A stretch of DNA of 64,000 nt. It comes from Eremothecium cymbalariae DBVPG#7215 (lineage: Eukaryota > Ascomycota > Saccharomycetes > Saccharomycetales > Saccharomycetaceae). The stretch spans positions 1 to 64,000 of the forward strand of contig NC_016454.1 in the NCBI RefSeq assembly GCF_000235365.1, written 5' to 3'. Positions within the stretch are counted from its first letter, which is position 1. Every line of letters starts with the position of its first letter. Made by a program: the position numbers and the translations under genes. The notes beneath the pieces were generated by a model that saw nothing but the letters and a program-made list of their open reading frames with translations, did not search any database and was not told where the DNA came from. Shown one piece after another: positions 1 to 56,221 of the stretch.

Positions 1-324
1 GAGACCGTACACCACACCGCTGAGGAGGACCCGTACACCACACCGCTGAGAGACCCGTACACCACACCGCTGAGAGACCCGTACACCACACCGCTGAGAG
101 ACCCGTACACCACACCGCTGAGAGACCCGTACACCACACCGCTGAGAGACCCGTACACCACACCGCTGAGAGACCCGTACACCACACCGCTGAGAGACCC
201 GTACACCACACCGCTGAGAGACCCGTACACCACACCGCTGAGAGACCCGTACACCACACCGCTGAGAGACCCGTACACCACACCGCTGAGAGACCCGTAC
301 ACCACACCGCTGAGAGACCCGTAC
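1..324. repeat. Telomeric repeat array (24-bp unit)
   Basis: About thirteen head-to-tail copies of a 24-bp unit run from the first base. The C-rich strand reads inward, as expected for the left end of a chromosome. The core GACCCGTACACCAC resembles the budding-yeast Rap1 binding consensus, so each unit probably carries one Rap1 site. The first two units are irregular (a missing C and an extra GAG), which may reflect end turnover or assembly noise. From memory, the Ashbya gossypii unit differs by one base (CCCATAC in place of CCCGTAC). The unit is identical to the candidate telomerase RNA template at 54451-54480. Confidence 0.95.
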
Positions 325-52598: not shown

Positions 52599-53603
52599 TC
52601 AACAAACAGCAGGAAGAAGTCCTTTTGTCCAAGCATACAATCCTAATGTCAAAACGATATTTATATATGTCACTACAACAGTGCTGGCGAAATATGCAAG
52701 CATATCCATGAAATTTAATCTGGATCCCTCATAAATCAATGAACTGATTGTACTTAAACCACCACATAATCCTGTGTTTAATGCGATCAATATTTGGCAA
52801 TCAGATCTAGAATTTACAATAGGATGCATTGTGTCTTGCTTGCCTCTTTCTACTATTATCAGTATGCTTAATATCAAGGTACTTAGAAGATTTGCAAAGA
52901 ATGTTCCAACATAGAAGCGCTGACATGTGGGATTCCAATATTTATTAAGGTAGAACCGACCTAGCGATCCGAAGATGGCAAATAGGGCAGGAAGAGTCCA
53001 ATTTCTTGAATCGACATTTAAAATAACCAAAGCCATATTCATTATTACCAAAGGAATTGCAAGAAATGCTGATAAAATGTAAACCTTATCGAAAGCCAAG
53101 GATATATACGAATTTGCCCTGTGTTTAGACGTAGCACTCAGAACCCGGTTATTAAACTCTTCAGCTAATTTATAACCGAATAAAAAGCTGCTCATGCTCA
53201 CGAAAAACTGCACAATCAATACTGAAAGAAACTCCATAATACCATATCCCTTATTGGGAAGACGTTTCATGTTTTGATCCAAGTTTGTAGAGTGTAAAAA
53301 GACTTCCATTATTAGGGATGAATATGAAGAAACTGTCCCACAATAACCACTTACCAGACATACAAATATATCGATATTGATAACCTCACGTTTATTCAAC
53401 CCTTGGAGTAAACCCATAAAAATACATGCCACAAAATTTGACCACAGGACCGTTCTTGATTTAATATAGCTGTCATCGTAGTCCGATAGTGCTGAAAGTC
53501 CAACTCTTGTATATGTCCCTACAATCACCCAAAAGATAAAGCTAAGATGGAAACAAATCAATGCCTTTACCTTCGAAGCTTTCTCACATGTAACTAGAGC
53601 CAT
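52599..53603 (-). CDS. FEX1: Fluoride channel Fex1 (double CrcB/Fluc domain)
   Basis: A plasma-membrane fluoride exporter. The 334 residues (S. cerevisiae Fex1/Fex2 375) hold two CrcB domains in tandem. Repeat 1 has GTYTRVGLSAL (about 29-39), SNFVACIFMGLLQG and GYCGTVSSYSSLIMEV (about 86-101). Repeat 2 has IFGSLGRFYLNKYWNP (about 215-230), TFFANLLST (about 240-248) and GLCGGLSTISSLIYE (about 282-296). The Asn and Ser/Thr pore-track and Phe-box positions are recognisable though partly altered. In S. cerevisiae the FEX genes are subtelomeric, not beside PDX3. Confidence 0.9.
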   Translation of the reverse strand: MALVTCEKASKVKALICFHLSFIFWVIVGTYTRVGLSALSDYDDSYIKSRTVLWSNFVACIFMGLLQGLNKREVINIDIFVCLVSGYCGTVSSYSSLIMEVFLHSTNLDQNMKRLPNKGYGIMEFLSVLIVQFFVSMSSFLFGYKLAEEFNNRVLSATSKHRANSYISLAFDKVYILSAFLAIPLVIMNMALVILNVDSRNWTLPALFAIFGSLGRFYLNKYWNPTCQRFYVGTFFANLLSTLILSILIIVERGKQDTMHPIVNSRSDCQILIALNTGLCGGLSTISSLIYEGSRLNFMDMLAYFASTVVVTYINIVLTLGLYAWTKGLLPAVC

Positions 53604-53863
53604 TTACGGATTCTTTGATGTTAGTAATAGAACAGCTCAAGAGCTTTTTTATGTCATGATAATGAGATCACACAACGGGTGAGACATTTCTTAGATAAAA
53701 ATGTAGCTAATTTTTCTAACTGTTATTTCCCAAGCATTACAACTGAAACAAGAACAGAATATAGTAAAACCTAGTAGTATGTTAAGTTTATGTGCGGTAA
53801 GAGAATTTATAGTTGCGTCCATTGTGATCAATACATAAAGGTATTGATAAAATCGACAAAATT

Positions 53864-53912
53864 CCAAAAATTGAATTCCACTAGTAGAGAGCATACAAAT
53901 TTTGCTCAGTGG
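53864..53912 (-). other. Telomerase RNA 3' terminal stem and Sm site
   Basis: Reading 5' to 3' on the minus strand: CCACT-GAGCA, a 9-nt loop, TGCTC, six unpaired bases, AGTGG (53912-53878), then five bases and AATTTTTGG (53872-53864). A stem followed by an AUUUUUGG Sm site is the usual 3' end of yeast telomerase RNAs and is needed for Sm-ring binding and stability. Confidence 0.75.
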
Positions 53913-54142
53913 CCATTGATCACATAGTCAAATGTCAACGGCCACCTTAATAAAGTATTGATTGAATCTTAGTAAAAAATTCAATTTCTCTGCTGATGGA
54001 TTGAAGGGAGTCCCAAAACACCATTGTTGGAGAATGGTTTATTCGTTAAAGGGACACGAAAAACCAATAAAAAGAATCCATCTAATGGTGGAAGATCATT
54101 CCAAGTTGCCCAATTCAAGCTAGGAGACCAAGTCATTAAAGA

Positions 54143-54173
54143 CTTGCAAGACATCCAAAAATGGACTTGCAAA
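54143..54173 (-). other. Bulged hairpin in telomerase RNA with second Sm-like sequence
   Basis: The RNA can fold as TTTGCAAG paired with CTTGCAAG (8 bp, one G-U), a TGT bulge on the 3' side, then TCCA paired with TGGA around a TTTT loop. It contains ATTTTTGG, the Sm core, but inside a stem, so it is less likely to be the real Sm site. A bulged stem is the kind of site Est1 or Ku binds in TLC1; I cannot assign it. Confidence 0.4.
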
Positions 54174-54450
54174 ACTAGGGTTCGCAAGCCCACAAAGGTT
54201 ATCTAGTTGTCACGGATTATCGATGATTTGGGCATTGCTAACAATGGAATCTAAAGCAATATCAGATTCCTTTTGTAAGCCATAGACATCCTAGATTAGG
54301 ATGCCACAGAACAAACCAAATCCCATAAACTAGATCTTGGATGCTGAACATGCTAGGGGCTTTAATAATTTGTATAAACCCTCCCAGACTAAATTGACAA
54401 CTACTCCTGTAAAAGCAGAAGAGTGCCCTAACATAAGTGGTTCGCACATT

Positions 54451-54480
54451 TCAGCGGTGTGGTGTACGGGTCTCTCAGCG
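54451..54480 (-). other. Telomerase RNA template
   Basis: Thirty bases on the minus strand start and end with CGCTGA and hold GACCCGTACACCAC between. This is 24 bases of telomere unit plus a 6-base terminal repeat for realignment, the layout of the 30-nt Kluyveromyces lactis template with its 5-nt terminal repeats. It is the only telomere unit seen outside the chromosome end in this window. Confidence 0.95.
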
Positions 54481-54481
54481 A

Positions 54482-54694
54482 TCTTGTCCGCATCTTAAAA
54501 CAGATCCAGTCCTTAAACATCCTCCCTCACCTCTACAGTTCAAACCCTTTAAAAGTGTTGAAACCAACCCCGCTGGAGATATCCAAGAACACAGAGGTGC
54601 GATCCTGCTTGTGATCAGGTATCGAACCCTGGGGGTTAAGGTAAAACGGAGGTGTATTCAAAACACCGGAACTGATCAGGAAATAAGGACAAGA
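54482..54694 (-). other. Template boundary helix of telomerase RNA
   Basis: RNA bases UCUUGUCC (54694-54687) can pair perfectly with GGACAAGA (54489-54482) to form 8 bp. The 3' arm ends one base before the template. Helices directly 5' of the template set the template boundary in S. cerevisiae and K. lactis. About 197 nt lie between the arms. Confidence 0.75.
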
Positions 54695-54963
54695 AACGAT
54701 TCCAACCTTAGCATAATGGGACTCTGATGATGTTGCCAAGCGCTAAATACACTGAGCACAAGCGTTTGACGACCTCTTGGCGAATGTCTAATAACAATTC
54801 ATGAGTTGTAAGTAGAGGAGAAAACCTGAAAATGAACGAAAAATCGCTACCGTTTGCGAAAATTGAACCGCGTCCGGACATCTCATACGGAGCCTGATAA
54901 GAACCCTGACTGACCAAGGTTTTTAATACCAAATCTTCGACAGTCATCATTATCCCTAATAGT

Positions 54964-55296: not shown

Positions 55297-56221
55297 TGGT
55301 AAATCAACTTGGAATTGGTATTGAGGTGTCCCTTTCTTGTGAATTCTTTGATTATTAGACTTTAGATGTTTCATATTGGCGTTAAAAGGAACCCACTGTG
55401 CTACCAGCGAAATTTGGCACAATGTGCTTTAAACGTGAAAGATGACTAAATCATGTGATCACATGCCTTCCGATACAAAAGTCTAACTACTAACATACTG
55501 ATAGTTAAAGTTAATATGAACATATACAATATATAACTAAAACCAGTGTTAGTTCTACTACAGTGAATGGGTACCTAATGTGTAGCAGAGTGCACTAATC
55601 ATTCTTACGACTCCCATTAAGATTTAAAGCCCTAATAGGTTGTCAGTTACCGTGACAACTGTTAAAAGAACGCTTCAACATCACGAAAAAATCTTTAGTA
55701 GAGTATTTAAATGGGCTTGTCCATTTTAATTTAATAGTTTTATATAGGTATATTAAATCATAAGAAAAGTAGCTAAAAATAACCAGTAACATTGGCTGTC
55801 TGTGCTTATCATCAACTTTCAGATGGTCTCATTAAGCTGGGAGAATATGTTTATTATGCTATACGCAGATAAGGAACAACTTAAGTTCTGTCGCTACTGA
55901 AGGTACATATGCTCTACTTCAGGTGACACTAATGTTGTTCATACATTTTGTAGAATATAAAACGAAACGTTGTGCTTGATAGTAGCAATATTTGGTACCT
56001 GTTAGGTGTGTTTCTTCTCTCAAGGAAGAGGTTTGTTGAATTGTGTTAATTAACCAATCAAGTAAAAACAATAAAAATTATTACATATTATTTCATTAAA
56101 TCGAACTACCGGTATGGAGAAATCATACAATACCCGAAAATCAAAATTGAATGCCATAAAAAGTTGGTCAAATCATTAATGGTAATGATATTAAACGGAA
56201 ACATAAATCTCAATATGGGAG
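55297..56221. other. DAD1-KCS1 spacer
   Basis: About 925 bp, AT-rich, upstream of DAD1 and downstream of KCS1. I see no gene, tRNA or repeat in it. Confidence 0.5.

Follow-up and report, generated by a model that had tools for sequence, protein, structure and literature searches.

Strand, 3' end and predicted architecture of the telomerase RNA locus of Eremothecium cymbalariae

The first 64,000 nucleotides of contig NC_016454.1 from Eremothecium cymbalariae (the window, below) begin with a telomere and hold one further copy of its repeat in an internal gap of 1.36 kb. Is this copy the template of a telomerase RNA gene and, if so, which strand is transcribed and where does the RNA end? An earlier note on this DNA had placed such a gene on the minus strand, and the proposal is supported by the identity of the template, its uniqueness, its strand sense and a downstream Sm motif, all observed in this analysis, as is the stability of the fold. 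We conclude with high confidence that the locus is the E. cymbalariae telomerase RNA gene (TLC1/TER), transcribed from the minus strand. The novelty that the earlier note implied does not hold, however: the gene has been in print since 2011 (Wendland and Walther, 2011) and appeared again in 2018 (Waldl et al., 2018), so that the finding is mainly a confirmation. What is new is the correction of the strand, an extension of the 3' end that takes in an Sm motif, and a model of the structure in keeping with the family.

In the part of its text available to us, the 2011 paper (PMC3276169) describes a 24-bp repeat and 9 of the 16 telomeres of E. cymbalariae, and names the sole repeat copy outside the telomeres, on CHR6, as 'putative EcymTLC1', syntenic with S. 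cerevisiae TLC1, which lies between YBR035C and YBR036C. The present locus agrees with that account in chromosome, in the 24-bp repeat and in synteny with the S. cerevisiae and A. gossypii TLC1 genes, while the available text gives no strand, coordinates, Sm site or structure. Table 1 of Waldl et al. (2018; PMC6115765) lists NC_016454.1, strand 'pos', TER 54,147-54,960 and template 54,451-54,480. The template is identical to ours; the strand and the interval differ, since we place the gene on the minus strand with a 3' end at about 53,854 and with the Sm consensus present. As far as its accessible text goes, the 2018 survey reports no Sm, Est1, three-way-junction or Ku element for Eremothecium, and leaves open whether these RNAs have a three-way junction. 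Within the open-licence literature we found no printed correction of the strand or the Sm site.

Synteny and neighbouring genes

The gap (53604-54963) is flanked by genes for CrcB (PF02537) and DAD1 (PF08649). Among ATG open reading frames of at least 60 aa, only two small ones overlap it, neither with a Pfam match, which bears out the earlier description of a stretch between DAD1 and the fluoride channel gene that is free of protein genes. Pfam domains identify the neighbours as PSF1, a Wap1-domain protein, PDX3 (PF10590/PF01243), the CrcB fluoride channel, DAD1 and an inositol polyphosphate kinase; judged by position, we take the Wap1-domain gene to be RAD61 and the kinase gene to be KCS1. 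From the PDX3 start codon (52347) it is 1.26 kb to the gap and 1.5 kb to the Sm site described below. YBR035C, which we take to be PDX3, is a Crick gene in S. cerevisiae, to go by its systematic name. With the PDX3 domain present and the syntenic position already in print, synteny with TLC1 on the YBR035C side is in place, as the earlier note had argued from the TLC1-PDX3 neighbourhood.

Two further features of the locus deserve mention. The CrcB-type fluoride channel gene (52599-53603) separates PDX3 from the telomerase RNA gene. It may be the one extra gene, common to the deduced ancestor, that the available text of the 2011 paper mentions at the TLC1 locus (PMC3276169). On the other side, an H/ACA snoRNA gene lies between DAD1 and the kinase gene, 0.8 kb past the telomerase RNA gene:

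55769..55948, plus strand: snR161 H/ACA snoRNA, neighbouring gene (RF01237, 97 bits)

As snR161 presumably also adjoins TLC1 in S. cerevisiae, the two are perhaps an old pair of RNA genes, parted here by DAD1. The Rfam telomerase family itself gives no match in the window at gathering scores, nor in the gap at E values up to 10, a point of difference from the Kluyveromyces and Saccharomyces telomerase RNAs.

Template, telomere repeat and strand sense

Two stretches of the window share the repeat:

1..324, plus strand: telomere array, C-strand sequence with a 24-nt unit (read from the sequence)
54451..54480, minus strand: template, one 24-nt unit plus a 6-nt repeated alignment region (CGCTGA at both ends); exact telomere match, same coordinates in Table 1 of Waldl et al. 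(2018)

Read on the minus strand, 54480-54451 is CGCTGAGAGACCCGTACACCACACCGCTGA, 30 nt consisting of the 24-nt telomere unit and six repeated nucleotides. The array at 1-324 contains these 30 nt without a mismatch, as had been claimed, and one added base at either end ends the identity, so the match is exactly 24 plus 6 nt long. By chance, the 24-mer would be expected about 7e-8 times on both strands of 9.67 Mb. In the assembly of 9,669,424 bases it has at least 66 exact sites (50 forward, 16 reverse), totals that are lower bounds because of the way repeats are counted, in an assembly that comes without some chromosome ends. At least 65 of these lie in arrays at eight contig ends, within about 320 nt. 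Among the matches listed in this exact search of the whole assembly, the sole internal 24-mer is at C6:54452-54475 on the minus strand, and no full 24-mer lies outside the telomere arrays apart from the TLC1 locus.

A 14-mer core of the repeat occurs at four further exact internal sites and at six more with one mismatch, compared with five sites at up to one mismatch for the reversed control. At the four exact sites the identity with the repeat spans just 14-18 nt. They are not rival templates, and these searches of the assembly gave no better template at another locus; a better one elsewhere was part of what the earlier note had named as able to refute its proposal. All four (L010, L011, L012 and L013, at position 1501) carry exact CCGTACACCACACC, for which 0.07 sites would be expected of a random 14-mer; ACCCGTACACCACACC is present at three of them, and the L011 site lies between divergent open reading frames, one of them PRPP synthetase-like by eye. 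To judge by the Rap1 consensus, the four sites may serve to bind Rap1 or another telomere protein.

Next to the telomere, 325-1444 is a mosaic of degenerate telomere-like units that includes a 23-nt variant, TACACTGCTCCCTGAGAGACCCG. An exact search of the genome returned 19 copies of TACACTGCTCCCTGAGAGACCCG, none of them internal: they lie on C4, C5, C6 and C8, no more than about 1.1 kb from a contig end. The variant is thus not encoded by the telomerase RNA of today; it may be a relic of an earlier template or else a subtelomeric repeat.

The sense of the template decides the strand. Read 5' to 3', the plus strand begins at the left end of the window with C-rich telomere sequence. Telomerase extends the G-rich 3' strand; the RNA template must therefore carry C-strand sequence. 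Since the internal copy reads as C-strand on the minus strand, the gene lies on the minus strand, and 54451-54480 there has what a template needs, complementarity to the telomere G-strand and short repeated ends. The printed 'pos' cannot fit a working telomerase RNA, because the plus strand has G-strand sequence at this place; on this point the strand given in the earlier note is better than that of the 2018 table. S. cerevisiae TLC1 is on the plus strand in the accessible part of that survey (PMC6115765). With TLC1 on plus and PDX3 on Crick in S. cerevisiae, and both genes on minus here, the direction of the RNA gene relative to PDX3 differs between the two species; the 2018 assignment may perhaps have been made by analogy with the S. 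cerevisiae arrangement.

Sm motif, fold and candidate helices

We place the gene and its 3' landmark as follows:

53854..54960, minus strand: telomerase RNA gene (EcymTLC1/TER), revised extent (template, Sm motif, fold z -7.0/-6.6 against -3.7 on plus)
53864..53872, minus strand: Sm motif AATTTTTGG, exact Saccharomycetaceae consensus (motif search), 579 nt from the template

The 3' end at 53854 follows the convention of Waldl et al. (10 nt beyond the Sm site), while the 5' end at 54960, directly after the DAD1 stop codon, is approximate. AATTTTTGG is the conserved Sm motif of the 2018 survey, which, in its accessible text, did not find it in Eremothecium (PMC6115765). At 53872-53864 it lies downstream of the template on the same strand, near the 3' end, as a predicted binding site, and 275 nt outside the published interval. 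The 9-mer occurs three times in the window against 1.84 expected, and downstream of the template in 3.2% of 2000 shuffles of the minus strand from the template to the CrcB gene; on the plus strand, the 483 nt downstream of the template contain none. The shorter ATTTTTGG is also found on minus, at 54162-54155. A looser pattern, AT{4,6}G[AG], was discarded as uninformative, occurring at least once in 58% of shuffles. The minimum free energy (MFE) fold pairs the Sm site weakly, with a probability of 0.19. In the listed species with both elements (computed from the available part of PMC6115765), the distance from template to Sm motif runs from 581 to 1700 nt, except for C. castellii with 369; the 579 nt found here are thus at the low end, next to 581 in K. 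aestuarii, and compare with 673 in S. cerevisiae and 789 in K. lactis. According to the accessible text of PMC7151599, the mature 3' end in S. cerevisiae is fixed by the Sm ring.

Folded over its full length, the minus-strand RNA (54960-53854) has an MFE of -351.9, with z of -7.0 against 325 shuffles that held the template and -6.6 against 60 full shuffles. For the plus strand the MFE is -290.1 and z is -3.7 (60 shuffles). A profile of 200-nt windows in 100-nt steps (60 shuffles each) confines the signal to 53801-54400: the five windows starting at 53801-54201 have z of -3.6 to -5.8 on minus, with the plus strand lowered too (-1.7 to -3.7). The window starting at 54301 has z +0.3, the profile being without signal at 54301-54600, and the 5' half of the gene ranges from +0.3 to -1.8. 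Averaged over the ten gene windows, z is -1.9 for the minus and -1.4 for the plus strand, and windows in the flanking genes average -0.3 to 0.6. The profile is not a sensitive one, because it fails to show snR161, which is certainly an RNA gene (z 0.2 and -0.05 on the strand of that gene). At the resolution of 100-nt steps the structured part ends close to the Sm site, and the interval published by Waldl et al. misses about half of it.

The helices of the predicted fold, which was computed without constraints, individually candidates only and several of them weak when taken singly, come from a structural model built on one sequence:

54701..54724, minus strand: core-enclosing helix candidate, 5' strand (20 bp with 54031-54008, pair probability 0.98-0.99)
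54687..54694, minus strand: template-boundary helix, 5' strand, at the base of a long arm 54694-54482 (predicted fold)
54482..54489, minus strand: template-boundary helix, 3' strand, 1 nt from the template (8 bp with 54694-54687, pair probability 0.99)
54151..54344, minus strand: branched arm between template and pseudoknot, Est1-arm candidate (z -5.1 for 54101-54300, -3.8 for 54201-54400)
54035..54076, minus strand: pseudoknot stem 2 candidate (54066-54056/54046-54035, 11 bp plus a bulge) with U-rich third strand 54076-54067 (fold; 7 pyrimidine triples)
54008..54031, minus strand: core-enclosing helix candidate, 3' strand (predicted fold)
53877..54000, minus strand: branched 3' domain, three-way junction (CR4/5-like) candidate (z -5.8 for 53801-54000)

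From 5' to 3' the predicted order is enclosing helix, boundary helix, template, Est1-arm candidate, pseudoknot candidate, branched 3' domain and Sm site, which matches the order in the Kluyveromyces and Saccharomyces telomerase RNAs (TER1, TLC1). The order of boundary helix, terminal stem and Sm site that the earlier note had described is confirmed, with unequal strengths: the template is decisive, whereas the Sm motif has the shuffle frequency given above. Shuffling the full-length sequence gave a boundary helix of at least 8 bp (within 3 nt of the template) in 9 of 325 cases; shuffling the 5' arm, which by itself has z -2.0, gave one (within 2 nt) in 17 of 500, and an equally stable one in 6 of those 500. 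In the present sequence the predicted 8 bp stand one nucleotide from the template with a probability of 0.99, and the MFE fold leaves only 10 of the 30 template bases unpaired. The length of the enclosing helix is no evidence, because stacks with as many pairs are not unusual (119 of 325 shuffles). A competing pairing, 54713-54698 with 54251-54236, was set aside, as the predicted fold prefers the enclosing helix. The 3' domain as predicted has a 5-bp closing stem and three hairpins, that is, a four-way arrangement.

Yeast cores share a template, a boundary element, a triple-bearing pseudoknot and an enclosing helix, with 2 nt at the junction between the last two, according to the available text of PMC7685517 and PMC7619062, and K. 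lactis has a pyrimidine-rich triplex pseudoknot (PMC4689454, likewise in part). Here, the stem 2 candidate ends 3 nt before the enclosing helix, as opposed to those 2 nt. When stems flanked by a U-rich strand were scanned for C.G-C and U.A-U triples, 7 triples were reached in 33 of 10,000 shuffles of 54032-54450, in 39 of 5,000 shuffles of 53604-54450 and in one of 310 tiles of the window on both strands, namely the tile that holds 54076-54035; a first run of the scan had given 1 in 600. As the scan was written after the candidate had been seen, these statistics are flattering and should be interpreted with caution. A stem 1 candidate, 54084-54076 with the 9-nt loop 54055-54047, was judged by eye, is weak and shares one base with the third strand.

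Genes for telomerase proteins occur in the same genome. The TERT gene has a Telomerase_RBD match at C1:909140 (E 1.5e-35, open frame of 855 aa; the sole open reading frame of at least 400 aa at this locus has 850 aa), and an EST1 gene lies at C4:328135 (E 6e-32). By analogy with yeast telomerases generally, from which we infer the binding of Est2, Est1 and Sm proteins and the catalytic cycle, an RNA of about 1.0-1.1 kb would be bound by the Est2 reverse transcriptase, and the chromosome 3' end (...TCAGCG) would pair with CGCUGA at the 3' end of the template. Est2 would then copy 24 nt until the boundary helix one nucleotide upstream halts synthesis, the six repeated nucleotides would permit realignment before the next repeat, and an Sm ring on AAUUUUUGG at 53872-53864 would set the mature 3' end.

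Competing readings and the annotation of the genus

Three other readings of the locus have to be weighed. That the gene lies on the plus strand at 54,147-54,960 is what the accessible Table 1 of the 2018 survey prints, and it would retain the S. cerevisiae direction relative to PDX3; yet the 30-mer on that strand is G-strand sequence, which cannot template G-strand synthesis, no Sm motif follows downstream on plus, and the fold is less stable there (z -3.7 against -6.6). We regard this placement as very improbable.

Still less credence is due to the view that no functional gene exists and that end-joining, repair or transposition left the repeat copy behind as an interstitial telomeric sequence. 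A lone internal telomere sequence would look the same, and four further internal sites match over 14-18 nt, but such an origin leaves unaccounted for a copy of exactly one unit with a 6-nt overlap in the syntenic TLC1 slot, surrounded by boundary-helix, pseudoknot and Sm candidates, with no second full 24-mer outside the arrays among the matches listed. Just as improbable is a binding site for the telomere protein Rap1, the core of which is CCCGTACA, unrelated to telomerase. The four other exact internal 14-mers, one of them (L011) between divergent open reading frames, show that short matches of this kind do occur, while the match here, with its 30 nt in a 24 plus 6 layout, exceeds these other sites in the genome and occupies the published syntenic TLC1 position (in the accessible text of the 2011 paper). 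A telomerase RNA gene on the minus strand is the reading we retain.

The strand question may extend to other species. Computed from the accessible part of the table of Waldl et al., the distance between the template and the listed 5' end is 400 nt for E. coryli, 743 nt for E. gossypii and 735 nt for A. aceri; because of this difference, the strands of the latter two need checking, and they may also be inverted. We consider it likely that the published annotation gives E. cymbalariae, and possibly E. gossypii and A. aceri as well, the wrong strand and 3' end, and that on the correct strand the Eremothecium RNA shows the architecture usual for yeasts, with the Sm consensus and a pyrimidine triple-helix pseudoknot. 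If so, the genus would not be the exception that it appeared to be in the 2018 survey.

Models built from the printed strand would rest on antisense sequence. The correction of strand and 3' end matters in a small way, in that it brings out a stable 3' domain and an exact match to the Sm consensus, and it provides testable boundaries for work on this RNA in the genus of the riboflavin overproducer A. gossypii.
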